NCBI GenBank assembly: GCA_031432545.1
Contig: JAVKGX010000001.1
Coordinates: forward strand, 516,411 to 580,410
Direction of reading: 5' to 3'
DNA: 64,000 nt
Source of the DNA: Armatimonadota bacterium
GTDB lineage: Bacteria > Sysuimicrobiota > Sysuimicrobiia > Sysuimicrobiales > Sysuimicrobiaceae
The position numbers were made by a program, and so were the translations under genes. The notes beneath the pieces are model-generated. The model made no database searches and had not been told where the DNA came from. It saw nothing but the letters and a program-made list of their open reading frames with translations. Positions 19,561-34,017 of this stretch are shown here, piece after piece (the stretch's first letter is position 1; each line of letters begins with the position of its first letter).

Positions 19561-21351
19561 ATGAATCGGAAGGCCTGGGTCCAGGTTTCCTACGCTGTCC
19601 TGATCATCGCGCTCGTGCTCCCAGCGAGCGCAGCGGTGGCGCAGGACGACCCCGCGATCCTGCCCGTGGACGCGATTCGGCCAGGGATGCGGGGCGTGGG
19701 CCGCACCGTGATTCGCGGCACACGCATCGAGGAGTTCCCGTTCGAGGTGCTCGGCGTCACCCAGGGACCGCCGGGCAAGCTGGTTTTGTTCCGGGCCGGC
19801 GGTGAGGTGATCCGCCGCAGCGGAGGCACGGCTGCGGGCATGAGCGGCAGCCCGATGTACATCGGCGGGCGGATGGCCGGCGCGCTCTCGTACGGGTACG
19901 TCTTCGCCGGACCGGACAGCGACTTGGGGCTGTTCACGCCGATCGAGGCAATGCTCGCCGTCCTGCGCGGCGGTCGCGGCGCCGGTCGGCCGTCGGGGGT
20001 GGTGGCGCTGGATCGCCCGCAGCGCATCGGCGGACGCGTCGTGCATGCGATCGCTCTCACCGCCAGCGCCGAAGAAGCACAGCGCATCGAGGCGGGGCGC
20101 GGACCCGTCGCGGCGATGGCGCCGGTCGCCGTCCCGCTGCTGGTCTCGGGGGCCAGCCCGCGCGCTTTCCGCATGCTGGAAGAGACTTTGCGTTCGGCCA
20201 ACGTCGTCCCGATCCAGAGCTACGGGGGCACCCGCACGTTTCCCGAAGCACCGCTGGTGCCCGGCAGCGCGGTCGGCGTGGCACTCGTTCGGGGCGACCT
20301 GACGGTCGCCTCGATCGGCACGCTGTCCTACCGGAGGGGTCGCGAGTTCTTGGCCTTCGGCCACCCGATGTTCGGATTCGGGGAGTCCGACTACATGCTG
20401 ACGACCGCCTACGTGCACACCGTTGTGCGCGCCCAGCGACTGCCCTTCAAGGAGGGCGACATCGGTTCGGTCGTCGGTGTGGTCTCGCAAGACCGGATCG
20501 CCGCCATCGGAGGGGAGGTCGGTCGGCTGCCGCGCGTGTTCAACGTCATGGTGACGGTGAACGACCAGGAAACCGGTCGTCGGGTCGAGCTGAGCGCGCA
20601 GATGATCCGGCGAGAGGACCTGGCGCAGCTGCTGGCGCCGCAGGTCGCCCTGGCGGCGCTGGACCGCGCGTGGGACGCAGTCGGCGCCGGCACCGCCGAG
20701 GTCAAACTTACGCTGCGCGGTGGCGGCTTGCCGCGTCCGGTGGAACGCACCAATCTCTTCTACAGCGGCCGCGACGTGGCCGTCGCCTCGGTCCTCGACA
20801 TCCCGGACGCCATCAGGCTGCTGTTCAACAACGAGTACGCACCCATCAGGGCGACCGACCTGAGGGTGGAGGTGACGCTCACGCGCCGCCGGGTCACGGC
20901 GACGATCGCCGAGGCCCAGGTCGAGAGCCGTACGGTGCCGCAGGGCGGCCAGCTGCGGGTGCGGCTGCGCGTGCGACCCTACCAGGAGGAGGATCAGCTG
21001 TCGCGCGTCGTTGAGGTCGCAATCCCTCGCAACTTCCCGAAGGGGCCGACGCTGCTGGTCGTCAGCGGCGCCGGCAGCATGCGCGACGACGTGCCCCCGG
21101 ACGTCCAGTTCGTGCAGAAGCTGCGCAGCGAGCCGCCGGCGTCGCCGTTCGACAAACTCGACGACGCCCTGCGGTTCTTCCAGGAGTTCGGACGCAACAC
21201 CGACATCCTGATCCAGCTGATCCCGTTCGGGGTGCCGCCCAGCGACGATCCGACCAAACGCTTCATCTACTTCGACCAGTTCGCGGGACGGCTCGTGCGG
21301 ACACCCTGGGTCGTCAAGGGCGAAGTGGTGATCCCGATCGTCGTGGACTGA
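19561..21351 (+). CDS. SpoIVB-type (S55) serine peptidase domain protein, exported
   Basis: 596 residues with a Sec signal peptide ending ASAAVAQ. The N-terminal ~300 residues read as an S55 peptidase domain: IRPGMRGVGRTVIRGTRIEE, FEVLGVTQG, then GGTAAGMSGSPMYIGGRMAG, whose GMSGSP (residues 93-98) supplies the serine, and later FLAFGHPMFGFGESDYMLTT. SpoIVB itself triggers sigma-K processing in Bacillus spores, but proteins of this longer form occur in non-sporulating diderms where their role is unknown. The C-terminal half is beta-rich with no recognised domain. The gene stands directly before tamB and the sigma factor, so a part in envelope signalling or outer-membrane protein processing is possible; that is inference. 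GGGG nine bases before the ATG supports the start. Confidence 0.8.
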   Translation: MNRKAWVQVSYAVLIIALVLPASAAVAQDDPAILPVDAIRPGMRGVGRTVIRGTRIEEFPFEVLGVTQGPPGKLVLFRAGGEVIRRSGGTAAGMSGSPMYIGGRMAGALSYGYVFAGPDSDLGLFTPIEAMLAVLRGGRGAGRPSGVVALDRPQRIGGRVVHAIALTASAEEAQRIEAGRGPVAAMAPVAVPLLVSGASPRAFRMLEETLRSANVVPIQSYGGTRTFPEAPLVPGSAVGVALVRGDLTVASIGTLSYRRGREFLAFGHPMFGFGESDYMLTTAYVHTVVRAQRLPFKEGDIGSVVGVVSQDRIAAIGGEVGRLPRVFNVMVTVNDQETGRRVELSAQMIRREDLAQLLAPQVALAALDRAWDAVGAGTAEVKLTLRGGGLPRPVERTNLFYSGRDVAVASVLDIPDAIRLLFNNEYAPIRATDLRVEVTLTRRRVTATIAEAQVESRTVPQGGQLRVRLRVRPYQEEDQLSRVVEVAIPRNFPKGPTLLVVSGAGSMRDDVPPDVQFVQKLRSEPPASPFDKLDDALRFFQEFGRNTDILIQLIPFGVPPSDDPTKRFIYFDQFAGRLVRTPWVVKGEVVIPIVVD

Positions 21352-21465
21352 ATGGCGCAGACGGGCGAACCTTTCCCCCGTATGGGTCCGTAGGACCAGG
21401 CAGGACCGGGCCCCTGCCGGGCGACGTTGCATGCGTCGGCGGGGCCGACCAGATGCCGTGTGCGC

Positions 21466-24400
21466 ATGCGAAGGGCCATTTCGATCGCAGCACTCGCACT
21501 CTTCGTCGCACTCTTGCTCGCGACCGCCACGGCGCTGTACCTGCTGCGCACCGGGGCAGTCGCCGACCGCATCCGCGGCGAAATGATGCGCGCCCTGCAA
21601 GACGCGCTCGGCCGCGATGTGTCCGTGGGGCGGCTGCGGGGCGACCCGTGGAGGGGGATCGTCCTGGAGGACATCCGGATCGCGCGCCACGAGCACCTGG
21701 CCGAGGGGGCGTTGCTGCGCGCCCGTTCGGCGACCATCACGTTCGACTTCGGCGCGCTGCTCGTTGACCTGTGGTCGGGCAGCCGCACCACCATCCCCGC
21801 GATCCGGCGTGTGGCCGTGGACGCTCCCATCCTCGCCCTGGTGCGCGGGGCGGACGGTCGGTGGAACGTGGAAGACCTCTTCCGTCCGCCACCGCCCGAA
21901 GCCCCGCCGACGCCGCCACCACCTGCGTTTCGCGGTGAGATCCACATCGCCCAAGGCGTGGTGCACTATCTGGATCGGTTCACCAGCCCGCACCTCGACT
22001 TCCGGGCCCTGCTGACCAACGTCGAGGCGACGTTCTCGCTGCGCGACAACCCGTTGCTGCGCGTCGCCGGGCGCGGCCGCGCCGCTGCCGGTGGGCCCTC
22101 GGACGTCGAGGTGCGCGGCTGGGTGCAGATCGAAGACGGCACACTCGATGTGGACCTGCGCGCCGACGGGTTTCCGGTGAGCACGTGGGGGAACTACTTG
22201 CTGCCGAGCCCGCGCGTGCGCTGGGAACGCGGCGCCGCGTCGGCGGCGCTGCATCTGTACAGCGTCCCGCACGCCGCCGGACCGACCCTGGACTTCCAGG
22301 GTACGGTGGATTTGCACGGCGCCGCAGTGCGACTGCTGCCGGAGGGGATTTCGCTGACCGGGCTGGTGGGTCGCATGCAGGTCGAAACGACGGCGCTGCG
22401 GACGGATGCGCTGCGGGTCCAGGCCGGCCGCGGCTCCGCCCGGGTGCGGGGTGAGGTGCTGCTGGCCGGCAGGGGGCAGCTGGATCTGGAGGTGGACGCA
22501 CAGCGCCTCGACCTGGCGGTGGTGCGCCGCCTGTTCTTCCCGAACGCCGTGGCGATGCGGGGAGAGGCGACTGGCAGGCTGCGTCTTTTCGGACCGATGG
22601 ACGCGGTGCGCATCCAGGGCAGCGTGCGCTCACCTCGGGCGGTGATCGAGGAGGTTGCTGTCCACAACGTGGCGACGGATCTGCACTATGCCGGCGGCAT
22701 GCTGGCGCTGACGAACCTGCACGCGGCCGCCGCCGGTGGGATGCTTCGCGCCGACCTCGTCTTGGGCACCGAGGACGCGCGGTACTTCGCGGCGGCGACC
22801 GTCGAGCGCCTGCCGACCGATCTGGCCGGGGGGTTCGGCTTGGTGCTGCCGGTGCAGACACGGGCGAGCGGCTCTCTCATTGTGGGCGGCGGCCCCGATG
22901 GTCAACGGGTGGTCGGTGCCCTCGCCGGCGAGGGCGGTTCGGCATTCGGGTTTCCGATCGACACCCTGCGCGCCAGTTTCGCCTACGACGGTGGCCGCCT
23001 GCGTCTGCACAGCGCCGTGGCACGGCGCGGTCCGATGTCACTGGCGGCGTCGGGGACCGTCTTCGAGGGCGGCGATCTGGACGTCTTCGCCGTTGCACGC
23101 GGCGTGCCGCTGCGGCTGGTGACGGACCGCATCGGGAGTGCCGACCAGCTCGGCGGAACGCTCGGCTACGCGGGGCGCATCCGTGGCAGTTCTCAGATGC
23201 CGGTGCTCGACGGCACCGTACTCCTCACCGACGGTTTCGTGGGTCCGCTTGCGTTCGACGACTGGGTGGGGGAGCTGACCCTGTCTTTTGCACAACTGGA
23301 CGTGCGGTGGTCGACCCTGCGCGACGGCACCGATCTGTACGGCATCGCCGGTCAGGCGCGCTGGGGTGCTGACCCGCGGCTTGCCCTCACGATGCGGACC
23401 GAGGGTGTGCGCGCGTCGCGCCTGGCCGAACTGGCACTGCTGCCCGTCCCGGTGGACGGACGCGTGGAGGGGGCGCTGCGGGTCACGGGGACGCCGCAAC
23501 GCCCACGGGTGGACGGCGACGTGCGCCTGCTGCGCGGGGCGGTCGCCGGCCAGCGGGTAGACGAAGCGCGCGCGCGTTTCGTCTGGCAATCCGGCCGGCT
23601 ACACCTGCAGGAGGCGACCGGGCGCGCCAACAGTTCCACGCTGCGGCTGGCCGGCACGGTCGACGAGCGGGGCGGGCTGCGGCTGTCGCTGCTAGCCGAC
23701 CGCATCCGGCTGGAGGAGATTGGCGCACTGGCCAACCCGTACTTACGCGTCCGGGGCGACGTGAGCCTGGAAGGATCGCTGACCGGAACCGTCGGCGACC
23801 CGGTGATCGACGCCCGGGTGAACTCCAGCCGCATCGTCTTGAACGGGCAGGTCTTCGACGGCGTCGACGGGCGCGCGCGGTGGCGGTCGGGTGTGCTGTC
23901 GCTGCTGCCGCTGCGTCTGCACCAAGGCCGTTCCACCTACGTCGCCGAGGGCTGGTTGAGGCCTGTGGGCACGCCGACGGCGCAGCTCTCGTTGGATGTC
24001 CGCGATGGACGGCTGGCCACACTGCTGGCCATCTCCGACAGCCCGCTGGACATGGACGGCCTGCTGGAGGGCCGCCTGGCGCTGTCCGGACCGCTGGCCA
24101 ATCCGCGCGCGGAGTTGAACCTGTCGATGCGCGACGGACATTACAACCGGTACCCGATTCGATCGGCGATCGGGCGGTTGGTCCTGAGCGACCGGAGGAT
24201 CACGATCCGCGATCTGGAGGTGGTGCCCAAGCAGGGGCGCCTGCGGGCCGAGGGGTTCGTGGACCTGGACGGTGCAAGCGAGATCGAAATCGGCGGCGAG
24301 GGACTGGAGGTCGACGCGCTGCGACCCGTGCTGCGTCTGCGCCACCCGCTGGCCGGCACCATGGACTTTACGCTGCAGATGTCCGGTCCGCTGTCCGAGC

Positions 24401-25815
24401 CCGTCGTCGGACTCTCGCTGCAGGCTGCGGAGTTCGGTGTGGGCGCCCCGGCCGTCGATCGCGTGCTGGGACAGGTCTTCTACCGGGAGGGAACGATCAA
24501 CATCCAGCAGATCCTGCTCGAAGCGCACGGACAGCGGGCCCGGATCGAAGGCCAGATTCCCGCGCGCGCCGACAGACTGTCGCTGGATCCGACACGGCCG
24601 CTGTCCCTGCGGCTGTCCGCGGACGGGACGGACCTGAGCCTGCTCCGGCTACTGACCCCTTCCGTGGAGGAGGCAACCGGCACCCTAGAGTTCCAGGTGG
24701 ACGTGACCGGCACGACCGCCGAGCCTGCGATGGCAGGGTTCGCGCGCGTGCGCTCGGGCGGGTTGCGGATCGGCGGGCTGAACCAGCCGATCGAGGACCT
24801 CCAGCTCGATCTGCGCTTCGACCAAAGCCGCGCCGTCTTGGAGCGCCTGCACGCAGACGTCGGCGGCGGGCGGCTGGCGGCCAACGGGCAGGTGACGTTC
24901 CGAGACCTGCGTCCGGATGCAGCGGACCTGCGGATGGGTGCAACTGGGATCCGGATCGAGGTCCCGCCCGTCTACCGAGGCCGGGTCGACGGCGAGATCC
25001 GGTTGGACGGCCCCCTATCCGCCTTGCGCCTGAGCGGCCGCATCACGCTGGGTGCAGGCGAGTTGCTGCTGGCTCTGCCTGCCGCCACCACGAGTGCGAA
25101 CCGGGCCGCCTTTCCGCTCTCATTCGCCCTCGACCTGGTCGCCGGCGACGACCTGTTCGTGGTCGCTGGTCCCGTCCGGCTGGGTGTGAGCGGCCAGCTG
25201 CGGTTGGGCGGCACGCTGGCGCGGCCCACGCTCGCCGGGACCGTGTCTGCAGGAGCGGGGGAGTTCCACGCGTTCGGGACCACGTTCGTGCTGGAGGAAG
25301 GCACGGCCACGTTCCAGGAGTTCCGCGGCGTAGAGCCGATGATCACGGCGCGGGCGCGGACGCGCGTGGGGGACACCACGGTCTTCGTGCACATCCGAGG
25401 CACACCGGGCGACATGCAGCTGTCGCTGTCGAGCGATCCGCCGCTGCCGCACGATCGCATCGTGGCGTTGCTGGCAGCGCAGACGGGAATCTCTCAGGCA
25501 CTGGAGGGGAACGTCGAGGCGCTGCTGCGTCAGCAGTTGACGCGCCTGCTGTTCGGCGAGTTCGAAGCGCGGTTGCGTCAGGCGCTGGGGTTGAGCGAGC
25601 TGCGGATCGAGTATGATTTCGAGAGTCCGCTGCGGCTGCGGCTGGGTCAGTTGCTGGTTGAGAACCTGTACCTGACCCTGACGACGATCTTCGATGCGCA
25701 GACACGGTTCATCTGGGCGCTGGAGTACCGGTTCTCTCCCAGCGTCGCGTTGGCGTTCACGTACGACCAGCGAGGTCTGTGGCTGCTCTTGCTGCGTGCC
25801 CGGTTCGCATGGTAG
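21466..25815 (+). CDS. tamB: TamB/AsmA-like translocation and assembly protein
   Basis: 1449 residues. One N-terminal transmembrane anchor (ISIAALALFVALLLATATAL) is followed by >1300 residues of repeating short amphipathic beta strands, the beta-taco groove of TamB/AsmA-like proteins that carries lipid between membranes. The C-terminal DUF490 domain is well kept: AGEFHAFGTTFVLEEGTATF, then ITARARTRVGDTTVFVHIRG, SSDPPLPHDRIVALL and FRFSPSVALAFTYDQRG at the end. ATG 21466 is chosen because the anchor starts there; no strong ribosome site is seen. BamA is encoded two genes later and TamA is absent, the usual arrangement in diderm Terrabacteria, where TamB works with BamA. Confidence 0.9.
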   Translation: MRRAISIAALALFVALLLATATALYLLRTGAVADRIRGEMMRALQDALGRDVSVGRLRGDPWRGIVLEDIRIARHEHLAEGALLRARSATITFDFGALLVDLWSGSRTTIPAIRRVAVDAPILALVRGADGRWNVEDLFRPPPPEAPPTPPPPAFRGEIHIAQGVVHYLDRFTSPHLDFRALLTNVEATFSLRDNPLLRVAGRGRAAAGGPSDVEVRGWVQIEDGTLDVDLRADGFPVSTWGNYLLPSPRVRWERGAASAALHLYSVPHAAGPTLDFQGTVDLHGAAVRLLPEGISLTGLVGRMQVETTALRTDALRVQAGRGSARVRGEVLLAGRGQLDLEVDAQRLDLAVVRRLFFPNAVAMRGEATGRLRLFGPMDAVRIQGSVRSPRAVIEEVAVHNVATDLHYAGGMLALTNLHAAAAGGMLRADLVLGTEDARYFAAATVERLPTDLAGGFGLVLPVQTRASGSLIVGGGPDGQRVVGALAGEGGSAFGFPIDTLRASFAYDGGRLRLHSAVARRGPMSLAASGTVFEGGDLDVFAVARGVPLRLVTDRIGSADQLGGTLGYAGRIRGSSQMPVLDGTVLLTDGFVGPLAFDDWVGELTLSFAQLDVRWSTLRDGTDLYGIAGQARWGADPRLALTMRTEGVRASRLAELALLPVPVDGRVEGALRVTGTPQRPRVDGDVRLLRGAVAGQRVDEARARFVWQSGRLHLQEATGRANSSTLRLAGTVDERGGLRLSLLADRIRLEEIGALANPYLRVRGDVSLEGSLTGTVGDPVIDARVNSSRIVLNGQVFDGVDGRARWRSGVLSLLPLRLHQGRSTYVAEGWLRPVGTPTAQLSLDVRDGRLATLLAISDSPLDMDGLLEGRLALSGPLANPRAELNLSMRDGHYNRYPIRSAIGRLVLSDRRITIRDLEVVPKQGRLRAEGFVDLDGASEIEIGGEGLEVDALRPVLRLRHPLAGTMDFTLQMSGPLSEPVVGLSLQAAEFGVGAPAVDRVLGQVFYREGTINIQQILLEAHGQRARIEGQIPARADRLSLDPTRPLSLRLSADGTDLSLLRLLTPSVEEATGTLEFQVDVTGTTAEPAMAGFARVRSGGLRIGGLNQPIEDLQLDLRFDQSRAVLERLHADVGGGRLAANGQVTFRDLRPDAADLRMGATGIRIEVPPVYRGRVDGEIRLDGPLSALRLSGRITLGAGELLLALPAATTSANRAAFPLSFALDLVAGDDLFVVAGPVRLGVSGQLRLGGTLARPTLAGTVSAGAGEFHAFGTTFVLEEGTATFQEFRGVEPMITARARTRVGDTTVFVHIRGTPGDMQLSLSSDPPLPHDRIVALLAAQTGISQALEGNVEALLRQQLTRLLFGEFEARLRQALGLSELRIEYDFESPLRLRLGQLLVENLYLTLTTIFDAQTRFIWALEYRFSPSVALAFTYDQRGLWLLLLRARFAW

Positions 25816-25837: not shown

Positions 25838-26485
25838 GTGTTCGACGACTACCTGAAAGAGCTTCGTAAGGTCCGCACCCTAACCGCTCCACAGGAACGT
25901 CGGCTGTGGGAGCGGTACAAGCTGCGGGGCGACCTCCGCGCGCGGAGGCGGCTCATCGAGGCGTACCAGCCGCTGGTGTTCAAGACGGTCATGGCGCTGC
26001 GCCTTCCGCCCGCGGTGCTCATGGACATGATCCAAGAGGGTACCGTGGGGCTGATCGAGGCGGTGGAGCGCTTCGATCCGGCGCGCGGTTTTCGGTTCTC
26101 GACGTTCGCCACCTACCGCATCCGAGGAAACGTGCTCAACGCACTGCGCAGGGAAAAGGGCGGGGTGCTGTCGCTGGAACAGGAACTGATGGCGCACACC
26201 GATCTGCCCGTGGCGACGCGGCTCGCGGACCCGGCTGCCCTGGAGGCGCTGGGCGCGGTGGAAGACGGGGTGTTCCTTGAGCAGGTCCTGCAAGCCATCG
26301 GCCGCTTGCCGGCCCGTGAGCGCGCGATCCTCTACGCGTTCTTCTTCGAGTCCAAAGAGCCGCAGGTGGTCGCACAGGAGATGCAGATCAGCGTCTCGCA
26401 CATGTACCGGCTGCAGAAGCAGGCGATCGCGCGCGTTCGCGAGATCCTCTTCCCGCCGCCGTCGCCGGGGCCGCAACAGGTTTGA
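25838..26485 (+). CDS. Sigma-70 family RNA polymerase sigma factor
   Basis: 215 residues from GTG 25838, with GGAGG five bases upstream. Region 2 is clear: LIEAYQPLVFKTVMALRLPP, DMIQEGTVGLIEAVERFDPA, RFSTFATYRIRGNVLNALRR, including the core-binding and -10 melting segments. Region 4 lies at the C-terminus: IGRLPARERAILYAFFFESK then VAQEMQISVSHMYRLQKQAI, a helix-turn-helix for the -35 box. A short linker replaces most of region 3. It is larger than a typical ECF factor and resembles the SigB/SigF/FliA class. It sits in an unbroken run between tamB and bamA, 22 bases after tamB, so it may control envelope genes; this is inferred from position only. Confidence 0.88.
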   Translation: MFDDYLKELRKVRTLTAPQERRLWERYKLRGDLRARRRLIEAYQPLVFKTVMALRLPPAVLMDMIQEGTVGLIEAVERFDPARGFRFSTFATYRIRGNVLNALRREKGGVLSLEQELMAHTDLPVATRLADPAALEALGAVEDGVFLEQVLQAIGRLPARERAILYAFFFESKEPQVVAQEMQISVSHMYRLQKQAIARVREILFPPPSPGPQQV

Positions 26486-26507
26486 CAGGGGCTGGATACT
26501 AGAAACC

Positions 26508-27059
26508 GTGAATCCCGTCGATCCCGCCGGGCGCGTGCTGCTCCACATGGTGGATGCCGAGGCGTGGCTGCGCCGCGCCCGGAGGGAGTGGCGACGGGGC
26601 GCGCGCGCGCGGACGCTGCTCACCCTCTCGCTGGCGGAAGCGGAGGTGCGCGTCGCGCGGCAGGAGGCGCTGTCGGCACCGCTGCCCACCCGTCGGACCT
26701 CCGCGGCGCGGCTGGCCGTCGCGGCGGCCTGTGCGGCCCTGGTCGGGATCCTCGGAGCCGGTGTCTGGTCGGGCATGCAGTGGGACGACTCCGACGGGAC
26801 CGCCCGCGGCGTGATCGCCCGTCCTACTGAGGCGCGGATGCTGTCGCTGGGGTACGTGCCCGGCGTTGTCCTCCGACTCGTCGCTCCCGCGCGCGACGCC
26901 CTGTCCTCCGACCCGCGCCCGGCGCCGCTGGGCGGGCGGGACGGCGTTTTGACCCCCCTCCTGGTCGGCAGCGACGGGTGGACCCTGGAGCGGGGCGGCT
27001 TTGGGGAACCCTCGCTCCCCTGGTGGCTCCCCGACCCTGGGGGGACGGAGACGCCCTAG
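26508..27059 (+). CDS. Single-pass membrane protein of unknown function, next to sigma factor
   Basis: 183 residues from GTG 26508, 22 bases after the sigma factor stop. A charged helical cytoplasmic N-terminus (AEAWLRRARREWRRGARART, then LLTLSLAEAEVRVARQEA) is followed by one transmembrane helix (about 67-89) and an extracytoplasmic tail of ~90 residues that is Pro/Gly-rich and ends LPWWLPDPGGTETP. The layout (soluble helices, one membrane pass, outer domain, directly behind a sigma gene) is that of an anti-sigma factor, but no ZAS or RsbW-type motif is visible. I do not recognise a family. The next gene, bamA, starts 51 bases later. Confidence 0.6.
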   Translation: MNPVDPAGRVLLHMVDAEAWLRRARREWRRGARARTLLTLSLAEAEVRVARQEALSAPLPTRRTSAARLAVAAACAALVGILGAGVWSGMQWDDSDGTARGVIARPTEARMLSLGYVPGVVLRLVAPARDALSSDPRPAPLGGRDGVLTPLLVGSDGWTLERGGFGEPSLPWWLPDPGGTETP

Positions 27060-27110
27060 GTCTCAGGATGGGGTCCCGCGGCCAGACCTGTTGTGTTGGC
27101 GGAGGTGCGC

Positions 27111-28931
27111 GTGTGGCGGCGTAGTCGTCGGGTCGTGTTCGCGTGGTTGGTGATCGCCGCAGTGGCGGCGGCCCAGGGTGCGCTCGCGCAGACGCCCGCG
27201 CCCACCCCTTCACCCGCACCCACCCCGTCGCCGTCGCCCACGCCCGCGACCACCCCCACGCCGGCGCCGACGCCGGAGCGCCCGGTGCGGATCACCGAGA
27301 TCCTCGTCCGCGGTACCGAACGCGTCTCCCCGGAGGTCGTGTTCGGTGCGATCGGGTCGCGCGTGGGTGAGTTCCTGGATCGGGACCGTGTGCGCCAGGA
27401 CGTCGAGCAGATCCTGGCCCTCGGCCTGTTCGCGGACGTCGTCGTGCGCATCGAGGCCACCGCCGAGGGCGTGCAGATCGTCTTCATCGTCATCGAGAAC
27501 CCGGTGGTCGAGCGGGTCGAGATCACGGGCAACACCGTCGTCTCCACGGAAGACATCCGACGGGTGCTGGGCGTGAGGGAAGGTGAGGTCCTCAACACCG
27601 TGGACCTGCGTGCCGGGGCGCGGAACGTCGAGAGGGTCTACCAGGACCGGGGCTACGTCCTGGTGCGGGTGTCCGACCTGGAGTTCCGGCCGGACGGCAC
27701 GCTGCGGGTGGAGATCCGGGAGGGCGTGCTGGAGAGGATCGAACTGCGCGGACTGCGCAGGACCCGGCCGGCACTTGTGCACCGCGTGCTGGCGATTCGG
27801 GAAGGCGAGGTCTTCAACATCAACCGGGTCAACCGCGACCTCCAGGAGGTGTTCGAGACTGGCGTGTTCGAGAACGTTCGGGCGACCCCGCAGCCGGGCT
27901 CGGACCCGGACAAAGTCCTGCTGGTCATCGAGTTCGAAGAGCGCCAGAGCCGCGAGTTCGGTTTCGGCGTCGGGTACAGCCCGGAGGCGGGATTCCTGGG
28001 CAACGTCCAGTTCACGGAGCGCAACCTGCACGGGATGGGCCGCACGATCACCCTGTCTTACAACCGCAACGTCAGCTCGCTGATCGGAGGGATCGGGGAG
28101 TCGCCGATCACAGGGCAGCCGGCAGAGAACATCGTGATCCAGTACCGTGACCCGTGGTTCTTGGAGCGGGGCCAGTCGCTGGCCCTCGAGCTGCACGACA
28201 CGACGCAGACCGTCGATGATCCGGTGCTGGGCGTGAAGTACGCGCAGACGCTACTGGGCGGCTCGGCGACGCTTTCGCGCAGGTGGACGAACGAGCTCAG
28301 CGGGGCGCTCACGTTGCGCACCGAGCAGACCAGCTTCGCGGTGCTCGAGGGTACCTCTCCGGTGCCGCTGACACCGGGTCTGGTGAACGCGCTGAAGGTG
28401 GACGCGCTGTTCGACCTGCGCGACGACCCGCGCGATGCCCGGCGGGGCTTCCGAGCCAGCGGGTCGGTCGAGTACGCCTTCCGGTTCCTGGGGGGGGACT
28501 TCGAGTTCCTCAAGTACCAGGCCGAGTACGTCCACTACTTCCCGCTGTGGGAGGGTACGCTGGTCGGGCGAATCCGCGCGGCCGCGTCCACCGGATTCTT
28601 GCCCCTGCAGGAGCAGTATTTCCTGGGCGGCCAGAACAGCGTCCGCGGCCTGCCCGGCGGCGCGTTTCGCGGCAACAGCATGGCGTTGGCCACCCTCGAG
28701 TACCGCCTGCCGCTGGCGGCCGTCTTCCCCGACCTGCGGGACATCACCGCGATCCTGTTCGCGGACGCCGGTGGCATCTCCGCGTCGGGGTTCGGCTTCG
28801 TCGAGACCGTGCAGTTCTCGTACGGCGTCGGGGTGCTGATCCGATCCCCGATCGGTCCCATCCGCGTCGACTACGCGTTCGGCCCCAACGGCCGGACGCA
28901 GACATGGCTGTACTTCGGGCATCCGTTTTGA
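27111..28931 (+). CDS. bamA: BamA-family outer membrane protein assembly factor
   Basis: 606 residues from GTG 27111, chosen because GGAGG lies six bases upstream. After a signal peptide ending GALAQ comes a ~27-residue Pro/Thr/Ser linker of PTPSP-type repeats, unusual for BamA. Then three POTRA domains follow (ITEILVRGTERVSPEVV..., VERVEITGNTVVSTEDIRRV, LERIELRGLRRTRPALVHRV), fewer than the five of E. coli. The 16-strand barrel begins near residue 285 and carries the conserved lid-loop motif NSVRGLPGG (VRGF/Y equivalent) and ends in Phe, the outer-membrane signal. It inserts beta-barrel proteins such as the SLH-porin, BtuB and, elsewhere, LptD. Confidence 0.95.
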   Translation: MWRRSRRVVFAWLVIAAVAAAQGALAQTPAPTPSPAPTPSPSPTPATTPTPAPTPERPVRITEILVRGTERVSPEVVFGAIGSRVGEFLDRDRVRQDVEQILALGLFADVVVRIEATAEGVQIVFIVIENPVVERVEITGNTVVSTEDIRRVLGVREGEVLNTVDLRAGARNVERVYQDRGYVLVRVSDLEFRPDGTLRVEIREGVLERIELRGLRRTRPALVHRVLAIREGEVFNINRVNRDLQEVFETGVFENVRATPQPGSDPDKVLLVIEFEERQSREFGFGVGYSPEAGFLGNVQFTERNLHGMGRTITLSYNRNVSSLIGGIGESPITGQPAENIVIQYRDPWFLERGQSLALELHDTTQTVDDPVLGVKYAQTLLGGSATLSRRWTNELSGALTLRTEQTSFAVLEGTSPVPLTPGLVNALKVDALFDLRDDPRDARRGFRASGSVEYAFRFLGGDFEFLKYQAEYVHYFPLWEGTLVGRIRAAASTGFLPLQEQYFLGGQNSVRGLPGGAFRGNSMALATLEYRLPLAAVFPDLRDITAILFADAGGISASGFGFVETVQFSYGVGVLIRSPIGPIRVDYAFGPNGRTQTWLYFGHPF

Positions 28932-28956: not shown

Positions 28957-29019
28957 TCGCTGGGCGCGTGCTTGAGATCTACGGGGCAGCCGGTCGGGCC
29001 GGCTGAGGAGGGGACGAAG

Positions 29020-29472
29020 GTGGACCGCAAGACCAAGATCCTCATGATCGCGGTCGGAGCACTCGTCGCCGTGGCGCTCGCCGTGTGGGGTCTGATGGTG
29101 ACGGGCGGAACGGCGATCGGCCAGCAGCTCACGATCGGGTACGTGGACATGCAGCGGGCGCTGGACAGCCATCCGAGGAAGGCCAGTTCGGAGGAAGCTC
29201 TGAATCAGTTCGCTCGCGCGCGCATGACGCAGGCGCAGCAGCAGGCGCGCGGCAGGTCGCAGGCGGAGCAGACGCGCCTGATGCAGCAGGCGCAGCAGGA
29301 GATCCTCCGCCGGCGGACCGAGCTGCTGTCGGCCCTGGACAAGGACATCCGGGCCGCGGTCGAAAAGGTGGCGCGTGAAGCGGGCGTCATGATCGTCCTG
29401 GATCGTTCCGTCGTGCTGTACGGAGGCACGGACCTGACGGAACCCGTGATTCGGGAACTGAAGGGGAACTGA
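29020..29472 (+). CDS. Skp/OmpH-family periplasmic chaperone, first of three
   Basis: 150 residues from GTG 29020, with GAGGAGGGG a few bases upstream. An N-terminal hydrophobic segment (ILMIAVGALVAVALAVWGLM) acts as signal or anchor. The OmpH fold follows: the edge strand IGYVDMQRALDSHP, a helical arm rich in Gln and Arg (ARMTQAQQQARGRSQAEQTR), and the closing segment AREAGVMIVLDRSVVLYGGT with DLTEPVIRELK at the end. Skp trimers hold unfolded outer-membrane proteins on their way to BamA. Two further members follow within six bases each. Confidence 0.85.
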   Translation: MDRKTKILMIAVGALVAVALAVWGLMVTGGTAIGQQLTIGYVDMQRALDSHPRKASSEEALNQFARARMTQAQQQARGRSQAEQTRLMQQAQQEILRRRTELLSALDKDIRAAVEKVAREAGVMIVLDRSVVLYGGTDLTEPVIRELKGN

Positions 29473-29477
29473 TCCGG

Positions 29478-30674
29478 ATGCACGTGCTTCGGCTCGCCGC
29501 TGCGCTGTCGGCGGCGCTCTTGCTGACCGGTTGCGCCGGCACCCCGCGGTCGGTACCCTCGCCGAGCCCGGTGGCGGCGACCCCGCGCGCCACGCGCGTG
29601 GGACTGGTCGACCTGGACCGCGTCGCCGAGCAGCATCCCCGGGCGCAGGAGCTGGCGGCGCTGCGCCGCAGGGTCGCCGAGACCGAGGTGGCAATGCGCA
29701 TCCCGCTCGCGCCGCCCCAGATCGCGCAGCCGCAGATCCGCGACCTCGGACCGCGCCTGCAGGCCCGCACCCGGGAACTGCTCGAACAGCAGGCGGCGGA
29801 GCTCCGCCGGACATACCAGGAAGAACTCCGCGTGCTCGAGCGGCAGGGCAAAGAGGAGGTCGAGCGGTTCGCCCGGCAGGTCCAGGCCGAGCAGCAGGAA
29901 AAGCTCACCCAGCGGCAGGAGGCGCTGCAGGCGGAACTCCACGCGCGTGCGGAGGCCAAGCGCAAGGAGATGGAGCCCAAGCTCCGCGCCTACGAGGGGG
30001 AGGTCGCGCGGGAGTACCGGATCCCGCTGCTCAACCTGCGCCTGAAACTCGAGGCCGTGCAGCACACCGATCGGCAGCAGTTCGAGAGGCTGGTGGCCGA
30101 GTACGAGAGGCTGCAGCGAGAGCGCGAGGCGAAGGTCGCTGCCTTCCAGGCCGAGCAGCAAAAGGAGTTCGAGGCGTTCGTCAAGGAAAGCGAGGAGCAG
30201 GCGCGCTCGCAGATGGAAGCCTACCGCGCGGAGCTGGAAGCCGAGGCGCGTCGGCGCATCGAAGAGCGCGAGGCCATCGTGCGCAACCGTCTGCGCGAGG
30301 CGGCGGCGGCGCGAGAGCGCCAGTTCCGGGAGGTCATGCGCGCCAGGGAGCGCGAGCTCGTCAGTGGTGCGCAGGGAGAGGCCCGGGACGCGGTGGCGGC
30401 TGCGCGGCGCGAGCTGGAGCGGATCGTCGAGGAGGCCCGCGCGAAGTATGTGGCAGAAGAACGCGCGCGCCAGGAGCAGTTGCAGAGCCAGCTGGTGGCC
30501 CTGCGCACCCAGCAGGCGAACCTGGAGACCGCGATCCTCGCGGAGGTCCGCATAGAGGTGGCCGCGATCGCTCTGGAGCAGAACCTGGACGTTGTGCTGG
30601 TGCGCTACGTCTCCCACATCGGTGGCGTCGACATCACCGACCAGGTGCTGCGTCGATTGAGGAACAAGAGGTAG
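29478..30674 (+). CDS. Large OmpH-like lipoprotein with long coiled-coil arm
   Basis: 398 residues, more than twice the usual Skp length. A lipobox LLLTGC puts the modified Cys at 19. The OmpH body is split: the first strand is TRVGLVDLDRVAEQHPRAQE (residues ~38-58), and the closing part is LEQNLDVVLVRYVSHIGGVD and ITDQVLRRLRNK at the C-terminus. Between them lie ~280 residues of charged heptad-like sequence very rich in Glu, Arg, Gln and Ala (LARQVQ, QEALQAELHARAEAKRK, ARRRIEEREAIVRNRLREA). If it folds like Skp, the arms would be unusually long and could span much of the periplasm. The lipid anchor fixes one end in a membrane. Function otherwise as for Skp; inferred. Confidence 0.8.
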   Translation: MHVLRLAAALSAALLLTGCAGTPRSVPSPSPVAATPRATRVGLVDLDRVAEQHPRAQELAALRRRVAETEVAMRIPLAPPQIAQPQIRDLGPRLQARTRELLEQQAAELRRTYQEELRVLERQGKEEVERFARQVQAEQQEKLTQRQEALQAELHARAEAKRKEMEPKLRAYEGEVAREYRIPLLNLRLKLEAVQHTDRQQFERLVAEYERLQREREAKVAAFQAEQQKEFEAFVKESEEQARSQMEAYRAELEAEARRRIEEREAIVRNRLREAAAARERQFREVMRARERELVSGAQGEARDAVAAARRELERIVEEARAKYVAEERARQEQLQSQLVALRTQQANLETAILAEVRIEVAAIALEQNLDVVLVRYVSHIGGVDITDQVLRRLRNKR

Positions 30675-30680
30675 TTCTGG

Positions 30681-31151
30681 ATGTCGTGTGTCGGACGCCG
30701 TGTGTTTGCGGTCGGTCGTCGGTCCTCTGTGCGCGCGACCCGTCGCCTCCGGTTCGCCGTCGGAGGGTTGGCGGCGCTGATCGTCGCGCTCGTGTCGGTG
30801 GGCTGCCAGCGGCCCCAGATCGGTGTCGTGGACACGCAGCGCATCCTGGAGGAGAGCGTGCTGGCGCTGTCGCTGCAAAAGCAACTCAACGACCGCGAGA
30901 AGTTGATGGCGGCCGACCTGGCCGTCGCCGCCCAGCGCCTGGACCGCAGGGCGCTGGAGGAGCAGCGGTTGCTGTACCTGCGCGAACTCGAGCAGATGCG
31001 CGCCGACTTCGAGGAGCGGCTGAACCGAAGGCTGCGGGAGGTGGTCCAGGAGGTCGCGCGCGAAGAGAGGATCCGCGTGGTCCTCGCGAAGGGCCCTTCG
31101 GTCTACGGCGGGAGGGACCTGACGAATCGGGTGATCGAGAGGTTGAAGTAG
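30681..31151 (+). CDS. Skp/OmpH-like lipoprotein, third of three
   Basis: 156 residues from ATG 30681. A long basic N-terminus leads to a lipobox VSVGC (Cys42); GTG 30729 would give a more usual signal length. The mature part is a short Skp: [20 protein letters not shown], helical arm ([20 protein letters not shown]), closing segment [20 protein letters not shown] and [10 protein letters not shown]. The C-terminal pattern V-YGG-DLT is shared with the first copy, so these two are the closer relatives. Six bases separate it from the preceding gene and 67 from lpxD. Confidence 0.82.
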
Positions 31152-32211: not shown

Positions 32212-32244
32212 CCCGTGGGGCCGCCCGTGCGCGATGGAGTCCTG

Positions 32245-34017
32245 ATGGTGGCGAAATCGGCGTGGTGGTTGTGGGTGATTGTCCCGATGGCGCTGGGGTT
32301 GCCCCCGGCGCACGCGCAGCTGCCCACGGTCGTGGTTGTTCCGGCCGCCTCGTCGGCCGCCATCACCGTCAACGGGATGCACGTGATGCGGCTGCACGGC
32401 CCCGACGCGGAATCCCGTGCCCAGGCGGTGGCGCACCGTCTGCGCGCTGTGCTTTCCGTCGCGCCGGTGCGCATCGAGGTGCAGCCGGATCGGACCGGCG
32501 TCCACCTGGTCGTGAACGGCCACCGGGCGGTGACCGCGGACACCGCTCAGGCGCGGGCAAACAACACCTCTCCGTACTTTCTAGCCCTGGCCTGGGCAAA
32601 GGCGCTGCGGCGAGCGCTGGACTTCCGGCAGATGTGGCTGCGCCCGTCTGCCGTGGCGGTGGCGCCGGGAGCCGAGGCGACGGTCGAGGTGCTGACCGTC
32701 CCGCGCGGCGCGGTCCACATCGGCGATCACGACCGCGGGGTGGCAGAGGTGCGTGCCGACGGCACCGACCGGTTGGTCGTGCGGGGCGTGTCGGCCGGGA
32801 CGGTCCGCGTCCCGATCTCCTACGAGGGGATACGGCGTGAACTCGTCGTCTCCGTGCGGCCGCTGGCCGGCGGCCTGCCCGCCTCGGTCCGTGTCGTCGT
32901 CACCGGCAATCCGGCGGGCGCCGACGTCGTGCAGGAGGCCGTCGCCCGCAGGCTCGAGCAGGAGGCCCACCTGGGCCCGGGCGCGTTCGTAGAAGTCCCG
33001 GCGGTACTGGCCGGACCGCTGGCGGAGGGTCGGCGGCACGTCGCGGCTGTGCCGGTGCGTGTCCGCAGCCCGTTCGCGTTGCCGGTCGAGGGGATCGTAC
33101 GGATCGTGGTCGACAACGAGCGCGCGACTCTCGCGCAACCCTCGCGCCTGTACGTCAGCAACAACCCCGAGCGGCTCGCCATGGACGGTACTGTGTTCCG
33201 CGAGACGATCGAGCCCGATACGGCGATCCGCATGCTGTACCACCACAAGAACGGGTCCGACAAAGACAAGGTCGTCACCGTCCGCATCCGCAACCCGAAC
33301 GGACAGCCCGCGCGGGTGCACCTCCAGGTGGCCACACCGAGGGCATGGCACGACACGATGGCCGTCGGCCACGCCGCGGCCCGCCGCTTTTTGGAGATGC
33401 TGATCTCGGGTGCAGGATACGTCCTGGAGATCCCCGCCGGCGGGGAGCACACGTTCACCGCCCAGCGGATGCCACCCGCATTCGTCGTGTCGGGTCTGCT
33501 CCAGGCGCAGCTGCTCGCCGGTGGACCGTTGGAGATCGCGGTCGCGGTCCGCGCCGCATACCTGCTGGAGCGCACCGTCACGCGCGACGTCGATCCGACG
33601 CCGCTGAGCCACCCGCGGGGTATCTTCTGCACGCCGGAGGTCGAGATCCGCAAGACGCTGGCGGTCGGGTCTGACGAAGTGGTCGAAATCGGGTCCAGCG
33701 GGCGCCTTGCGGATCTGCGCACCGGCAGGCTCCTCGCGGGCGACTACGGGGTGCTGTACCGGCTGCGCCTGGAGCTCCACAACCCCGGGGAGACGGAGGT
33801 GGAGGCGGATCTGTGGTTGCGTGCGGCCGGCGGTCCCGCCTACGCGACGTTCGTCGTCGACGGGCGCTTGGTCGATCTGTCCTATCTGGCGCCCCACCGT
33901 GAGGTGGCGCTGGTGTCGGTCCGATTGGCTCCCGGGCAGTCGGTCCCGGTGGAGCTGCTGACGATGCCGGAGGCGGCGTCGTCTTATCCGCTGAAGATCA
34001 CGTTGAGGGCGAGGTGA
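32245..34017 (+). CDS. Exported protein of unknown function inside the lipid A operon
   Basis: 590 residues from ATG 32245, with GGAG six bases upstream. Signal peptide with cleavage near PAHA-Q (24/25). Residues ~30-130 hold a small alpha/beta unit (AVAHRLRAVLSVAPVRIEVQ, then VHLVVNGHRAVTADTAQARA, then SPYFLALAWAKALRRALDF). Residues ~135-206 resemble the T2SS/T3SS pilus-formation N-domain (VAVAPGAEATVEVLTVPRGA, VHIGDHDRGVAEVRADG, LVVRGVSAGTVRVPI). Residues ~310-590 are beta-rich, Ig-like in feel, with GHAAARRFLEMLISGAGYVL and VSGLLQAQLLAGGPLEIAVA. No barrel signature and no C-terminal Phe. The stop overlaps lpxC by four bases, so it is made with the lipid A enzymes. I do not recognise a named family; a periplasmic envelope factor is the cautious reading. 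Confidence 0.7.
   Translation: MVAKSAWWLWVIVPMALGLPPAHAQLPTVVVVPAASSAAITVNGMHVMRLHGPDAESRAQAVAHRLRAVLSVAPVRIEVQPDRTGVHLVVNGHRAVTADTAQARANNTSPYFLALAWAKALRRALDFRQMWLRPSAVAVAPGAEATVEVLTVPRGAVHIGDHDRGVAEVRADGTDRLVVRGVSAGTVRVPISYEGIRRELVVSVRPLAGGLPASVRVVVTGNPAGADVVQEAVARRLEQEAHLGPGAFVEVPAVLAGPLAEGRRHVAAVPVRVRSPFALPVEGIVRIVVDNERATLAQPSRLYVSNNPERLAMDGTVFRETIEPDTAIRMLYHHKNGSDKDKVVTVRIRNPNGQPARVHLQVATPRAWHDTMAVGHAAARRFLEMLISGAGYVLEIPAGGEHTFTAQRMPPAFVVSGLLQAQLLAGGPLEIAVAVRAAYLLERTVTRDVDPTPLSHPRGIFCTPEVEIRKTLAVGSDEVVEIGSSGRLADLRTGRLLAGDYGVLYRLRLELHNPGETEVEADLWLRAAGGPAYATFVVDGRLVDLSYLAPHREVALVSVRLAPGQSVPVELLTMPEAASSYPLKITLRAR

Follow-up and report, generated by a model that had tools for sequence, protein, structure and literature searches.

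A sigma factor and a putative membrane-bound regulator encoded as a pair in the tamB-bamA operon of Sysuimicrobiota and outer-membrane-bearing Bacillota

Why should a gene for a sigma factor, followed by one for a membrane protein with a single helix, lie in the middle of an operon for outer-membrane (OM) assembly? The question is raised by a stretch of 64,000 nucleotides (the window) from an Armatimonadota bacterium that GTDB places in the Sysuimicrobiota, family Sysuimicrobiaceae (GenBank assembly GCA_031432545.1, contig JAVKGX010000001.1, positions 516,411 to 580,410 of the forward strand). To our knowledge, little is known about OM regulation in diderm Terrabacteria. A first-pass annotation, made from the sequence alone, had placed both genes between tamB and bamA, and this placement holds, including the ends of the two genes. 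We conclude that they encode a dedicated sigma factor and a membrane-bound regulator (here called TMP), most likely an anti-sigma factor, which together would adjust OM assembly, and we give this reading a probability of roughly 0.6. The pair itself and its link to OM assembly genes are strongly supported by the comparison of genomes, and anti-sigma action is the likeliest mechanism. The genes and elements concerned are:

21427-25815, + strand: tamB, 5' neighbour of the sigma gene (PF04357, 1.2e-48)
25838-26485, + strand: gene for a sigma-70 family factor, GTG start, 215 amino acids; regions (1.2)-2-linker-4 according to Pfam and NCBIfam
26494-26501, + strand: GGATACTA, a -10-like element at the sigma/TMP junction, from motif scans
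26508-27059, + strand: gene for TMP, a one-helix membrane protein and putative anti-sigma factor, 183 amino acids; the GTG start is uncertain, with further start codons downstream
26523-26675, + strand: residues 6-56 of TMP, its conserved portion, predicted to fold as a helical hairpin in the cytoplasm (alignment, predicted structure)
26688-26774, + strand: TMP helix with the predicted membrane span, residues 61-89 (topology, predicted structure)
27093-28931, + strand: bamA, 3' neighbour of TMP (PF01103, 2.3e-36; POTRA repeats), likely to be co-transcribed with TMP

The order tamB-sigma-TMP recurs in CSP1-3, which NCBI taxonomy files under Candidatus Sysuimicrobiota, as well as in Negativicutes, UBP15 and other OM-bearing Bacillota, and bamA comes next in all of these except UBP15. 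A scan for sigma loci, in which one genome per species was used and 80 loci were kept, yielded 42 orthologues by context (L038-L078 and L082, 39-62% identity). A tamB match precedes sigma in all 42, and TMP follows it in 40; in the other two a contig end cuts the locus. Downstream bamA was found in 32, and of the ten loci without it, five (L038, L039, L042, L063, L072) end soon after sigma and the other five (L065-L069) are UBP15-like. The remaining 38 loci hold different sigma factors and have no tamB or bamA matches. The organisms named at the orthologous loci are CSP1-3, ANGP1 and 'Armatimonadetes' assemblies, Pelosinus, Propionispora, Megasphaera, UBP15 and Veillonella ratti, V. seminalis and V. 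intestinalis. In the phylum of the UBP15 locus, TMP was found in 5 of 7 genomes. At one UBP15-like locus (L067, 9638-16600), tamB and the pair are followed by methyltransferase- and glycosyltransferase-like open reading frames (ORFs), named by eye, and no bamA was seen among the ORFs read over 7 kb.

The first-pass annotation had regarded conservation of one gene without the other across relatives as an argument against a functional pair; this comparison was made and the pair survives it. In the window's own order, a sigma orthologue is present at 55-63% identity in 33 of 41 genomes (E<=1e-40) and TMP in 35 of 43, one match (G001) being marginal at 7.4e-4. Counting that match as absent, 32 of the 41 shared genomes have both genes, eight have neither and one, in which sigma lies at a contig end (G032), has sigma only. 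Among 250 genomes of Negativicutes, sigma was found in 206 (E<=1e-25), TMP in 206 and both in 204. Two of the unpaired genomes have TMP only (G081 and G260, the latter with TMP starting at base 351 of its contig) and two sigma only (G193 and G221, the latter with a divergent TMP directly after sigma after all). Both positions were listed for 114 genomes, and in 113 of them TMP comes immediately after sigma in the same orientation. In the sole exception (G182), sigma stands behind tamB on one contig and TMP before bamA on another, and the sigma loci of two further genomes (G122 and G174; L154 and L155) likewise have no TMP after sigma; judged from these loci, the operon is split in one clade, with both genes retained in the genome.

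Where the pair is missing, both genes tend to go together. Two genomes of the window's own family (G001 and G003, genus g2) carry the intact order S55-tamB-bamA-skp-skp-skp-lpxD-(conserved ORF)-lpxC-fabZ-lpxA, from which exactly sigma and TMP are missing, and by gene order this genus has lost the two together from an otherwise intact operon. Among the eight own-order genomes without the pair, an intact operon was demonstrated only for these two. Three others (G008, G014, G040) appear to be without both genes, and the absences in G012, G019 and G022 may be assembly gaps, because the S55 match there is truncated or close to the start of a contig. According to passages of PMC5491611, TamB and BamA of Veillonella parvula are Vpar_0526 and Vpar_0527, and the pair is missing from this species, judging from these consecutive locus tags. 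A sample of 199 Bacillota genomes includes 14 with TMP; all of these belong to the 49 that have an Omp85 barrel and none to the other 150. Joint loss, split operon and restriction to Omp85-bearing genomes thus mark the pair as a unit, optional, and confined in the Bacillota sample to cells with OM barrels.

A maximum-likelihood tree of 97 sigma proteins, with group labels assigned from the source of each locus and the root placed at the midpoint, separates CSP1-3 (32 proteins, support 100/100), Negativicutes (52, 100/96) and UBP15 (4, 100/99), while nine other Bacillota need two changes. Because these groups are separated with high support, the pair appears to be old and not to have been shuffled between them. 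The tree fits vertical descent, and its midpoint root leaves room for an early transfer between groups. We therefore put forward only tentatively, as possible yet somewhat short of probable, that the pair is an ancient envelope-control circuit, independent of sigmaE-RseA, which the common ancestor of diderm Bacillota and Sysuimicrobiota already carried in its tamB-bamA operon. Such a circuit would consist of a sigma factor lacking region 3, a regulator in the membrane that belongs to a new family, and an autoregulatory promoter, overlapping the sigma stop codon in many species. It would have been lost repeatedly, in some lineages with the OM operon intact.

The sigma factor matches Pfam region 2 at residues 39-107 (1.4e-17) and region 4 at residues 153-202 (2.1e-7), about 45 residues apart, and has a sub-threshold match to region 1.2 at residues 4-23 (0.013); region 3 has no Pfam match even at E<=0.1. 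Among family models, the general superfamily TIGR02937 fits best (97 bits against a cut-off of 42.9) and is matched over nearly the full length (residues 35-203), but it assigns the protein at superfamily level only. The earlier description as SigB/FliA-sized thus needs correction: the SigBFG model TIGR02980 gave 78.2 bits against a cut-off of 234.35 and the FliA_WhiG model TIGR02479 gave 78.1 against 189.6, and with region 3 unmatched, a SigB/SigF/SigG or FliA/WhiG (group 3) identity was rejected. Regions 2 and 4 as the only full domains, joined by a short linker, are features of extracytoplasmic function (ECF, group 4) factors. Such factors lack region 1.2 and have an ECF-type region 2; in the sigma factor described here, region 1.2 is matched below threshold and region 2 scores with RpoS, FliA, WhiG and RpoH models.

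No Pfam family reaches its cut-off with TMP, and a scan of 34 relatives gave 0 Pfam families at E<=0.01, in agreement with the remark in the first-pass annotation that no classical anti-sigma motif is visible. The NCBIfam 'antisigma' model NF052375 matches the window's protein weakly (16.5 bits against a cut-off of 100) and gives weak matches in 2 of the 34. Zinc-binding anti-sigma factors carry an HxxxCxxC motif; cysteine is absent from the invariant and near-invariant columns of the 34 sequences, and neither an RseA-type nor another known anti-sigma domain was recognised by these models. What TMP shares with membrane anti-sigma factors in general is a gene beside that of a sigma factor and a predicted single helix with the N-terminus inside. 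Across 95 relatives, each of at least 100 amino acids and spanning 159-285, the membrane helix begins near residue 65 of the aligned part. The 20 residues on the N-terminal side of the helix contain on average 4.6 lysines plus arginines, as against 1.5 for the 20 on its C-terminal side, and the N-terminal side has the higher count in 90 of 95; the N-terminus is therefore predicted to be inside. The best-conserved part is the cytoplasmic hairpin, and W20, L21, A24, L40 and E46 are invariant in the 34 sequences. In the predicted structure of the window's protein, helices 6-29 and 33-56 have a predicted local distance difference test (pLDDT) score of 97-98 over most of their length (residues 11-50), followed by a helix at 61-89 and a disordered outer tail with pLDDT around 50. 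Most lineages have a C-terminal motif like LVxxAxxSLRG, a form that the window's family is without. With TMP by itself as query, no significant fold match was obtained; the best hits were ferritin-like hairpins at E 3.1. When sigma and TMP were modelled as a fusion (L025, 37 paired rows), the sigma part had a pLDDT of 82-97 across most of its 10-residue blocks, with 58-69 in the linker, and the hairpin had 92-98; the best 50 matches in a fold search with this model were sigma factors only.

The junction between the two genes carries an element of its own. An expectation-maximisation search in 98 regions upstream of TMP returned TTnTCnGGATTnTA, with a likelihood gain of 237 against 25-27 in three shuffles; this gain is inflated by relatedness and the shuffles keep single-base content only, so that counts of the element are the better measure. 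Of the 98 loci, 24 have GGATAnTA in the 75 nt that precede TMP, among them 18 of the 36 with a GC content above 60%. As controls, the reverse strand and the region upstream of sigma gave no copy (0 of 98 each), and 135 of 17,937 random windows contained one. The junction copy is the only GGATAYTA in the window (0.11 expected). Across 41 own-order genomes, GGATAYTAR has 0-10 sites per genome, mostly fewer than the reversed control. Of the 33 genomes with sigma, 18 have it at the sigma/TMP junction, and in four of these (G004, G005, G007, G016) the junction copy is the only one. At many CSP1-3 loci the element overlaps the sigma stop codon, GGA TAC TAA reading Gly-Tyr-stop. In the window (stop at 26485) and at six other loci (L015, L017, L022, L029, L033, L037) it lies beyond the sigma reading frame or on its boundary, which points to constraint on the DNA. 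GC-rich loci have a TGnAnC-like hexamer (TGCACC-like) 17 nt before the element, and position -22 is G at a frequency of 0.91. Between genera of Sporomusaceae, some 50 bp around the element are nearly identical. Where TMP stands apart from sigma (G182), a Veillonella-like element is still found in front of TMP. From these features the element looks like a promoter for TMP and bamA, and it is perhaps the neighbouring sigma factor that reads it.

Two observations were made beside these counts. At L057-L061 and L128-L149, a near-identical stretch of about 50 bp precedes the -10-like element within roughly 100 nt upstream of TMP, and several of these Sporomusaceae-type stretches contain the palindrome CCAGAATCTGG before the element; the conserved stretch may be an operator. 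In the window's own genome, GGATACTA has 11 sites, seven of which read GGATACTAC and lie in apparent coding sequence, while one (L198) is ambiguous and the other three are the sigma/TMP junction, a site preceding an exported protein whose start is SLH-like (L192) and a site preceding an exported proline-rich protein with a C-terminal hydrophobic helix (L195).

According to our model, the cytoplasmic hairpin of TMP would hold the sigma factor at the inner membrane, and the outer tail, with its C-terminal motif conserved in most lineages, might sense the state of the envelope. Sigma, once freed, would raise transcription from the GGATAnTA junction promoter, and this would yield more of the regulator, as feedback, together with more BamA and chaperones. 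The element could instead be an ordinary housekeeping-sigma promoter or a conserved RNA or translation signal, which would be compatible with our conclusion on the pair and uninformative on sigma specificity. We consider this alternative rather doubtful, if serious: GGATACTA coincides at some positions with a loose TATAAT box and no recurrent gene set was found downstream of other GGATAYTAR copies (41 relatives; 60 stretches and 30 loci, a part of all sites), but the rarity of the element, its similar arrangement across lineages and the persistence of a like element with TMP away from sigma argue against it. A wide regulon is not claimed here, because the other copies head no recurrent genes, and this result weighs against the proposed circuit as well. 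Further points against it are that strict GGATAnTA is absent from 74 of 98 junctions, that family f7 shows no copy, that the window's own -35 region misfits the hexamer of the other GC-rich loci, and that none of the 34 TMP relatives scanned matches a known anti-sigma family above the Pfam or NCBIfam cut-offs. The fused model reached a predicted template modelling score of 0.55, which is neutral on contact, and gave no interface measure. The pair is dispensable, as seen in G001 and G003 and in the 35 of 49 Omp85-bearing Bacillota without TMP, and the genomes within each count given above are related, so that the counts are not independent.

TMP might also act as a positive partner or anchor that brings the sigma factor to the membrane or activates it. 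Sequence is silent on the sign of the regulation, TMP lacks a recognisable anti-sigma domain, and joint retention and loss are just as expected of an activator. A membrane protein with one helix that is encoded immediately 3' of a sigma gene is, however, usually an anti-sigma factor, and we consider an activator unlikely for this reason. It is less likely still that operon structure alone keeps the two genes side by side and that they serve separate envelope tasks with no interaction. All evidence is genomic and both genes lie in a strongly conserved operon, as this explanation would have it, but the pair is lost together while the operon stays, both genes are retained where the operon is split, and UBP15 has tamB and the pair with no bamA behind them. 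The least probable alternative is the full circuit suggested in the first-pass annotation, in which an S55 protease cleaves the membrane protein and thereby frees sigma. The protein in question is encoded at:

19561-21351, + strand: S55-like protein with a borderline match to PF05580, outside the proposed circuit

It does lie two genes upstream of sigma, as had been noted, and upstream of tamB in related loci. Its family score is borderline: PF05580 is reached exactly at its cut-off of 25.0 bits, over profile positions 128-209 of 210, and the SpoIVB model TIGR02860 gives 20.3 bits against a cut-off of 305. The protein carries a GMSGSP motif. S55 is present in 40 of 41 own-order genomes, with two matches each in G001 and G003, the intact operons from which the pair is gone, and a role of S55 in the circuit is therefore unsupported. 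A SpoIVB-domain protein (Vpar_0521) is likewise reported for V. parvula in the passages of PMC5491611 considered above, and S55 was rejected as a circuit member. Of the envelope circuit as first proposed, the sigma factor and membrane protein as a unit tied to the OM operon thus stand, on co-occurrence, adjacency and joint loss, whereas the protease falls away. Many relatives have two S55-like copies, in several genomes side by side.

How does the pair compare with known systems, if TMP is taken as a putative anti-sigma factor? RseA, which acts on sigmaE (RpoE) in Proteobacteria, is a one-helix membrane regulator. The likeness lies in a sigma factor without region 3 combined with such a regulator; the differences are that the pair described here is encoded inside the tamB-bamA operon and that its sigma factor also matches RpoS, FliA, WhiG and RpoH models in region 2 and has a region-1.2-like start. 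TMP has no RseA domain, since it matches no Pfam family, and the best reading is that the pair is analogous to sigmaE-RseA and not evidently homologous. RsiG is a soluble anti-sigma factor with a helical hairpin, the shape also predicted for the inner part of TMP. The sigma half finds WhiG chains of the Streptomyces WhiG-RsiG structures (6pfj, 6pfv) by sequence and fold; TMP differs from RsiG in its membrane anchor, the titles of both entries name c-di-GMP, and a TMP profile search found no RsiG chain at E<=10 and hence no homology. A link to the assembly of OM proteins is also described for sigmaE of Fusobacterium nucleatum, whose regulon includes skp and bamA according to passages of PMC11005410. 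The operon itself (tamB, bamA, skp, lpx) corresponds, in the parts of Antunes 2016 (PMC5007114) that treat it, to the OM cluster of diderm Firmicutes, including the same Negativicutes. The words 'sigma', 'transcription' and 'RNA polymerase' are absent from the main text of that paper, which does not discuss the pair. In the passages of PMC10665443, 'anti-sigma' is absent and 'sigma' is a supplier's name. No description of the pair was found among the titles and abstract openings searched in an open-access library, a scope that excludes supplements and subscription journals.

Whether the ancestor of the Firmicutes was diderm is under debate, as stated in parts of PMC5007114. Being locked to tamB-bamA, the pair offers a direct handle on OM regulation and on this debate. 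It also offers a genetic marker for OM control, one that goes with the envelope and not with the phylum, and it is open to experiment in cultured Negativicutes such as Pelosinus and Propionispora.

The window continues downstream of bamA on the + strand, in the order S55-like, tamB, sigma, TMP, bamA, three OmpH/Skp-like genes and lpxD, with:

28972-31151, + strand: three consecutive OmpH/Skp-like genes or ORFs 3' of bamA, the middle one of 398 amino acids

The third Skp-like ORF (30681-31151) and the genes from lpxD onwards were labelled by reading and conserved order. Between lpxD and lpxC lies a conserved ORF of 600 amino acids (32215-34017) with a signal-like start, which occupies the same spot in G001 and G003.
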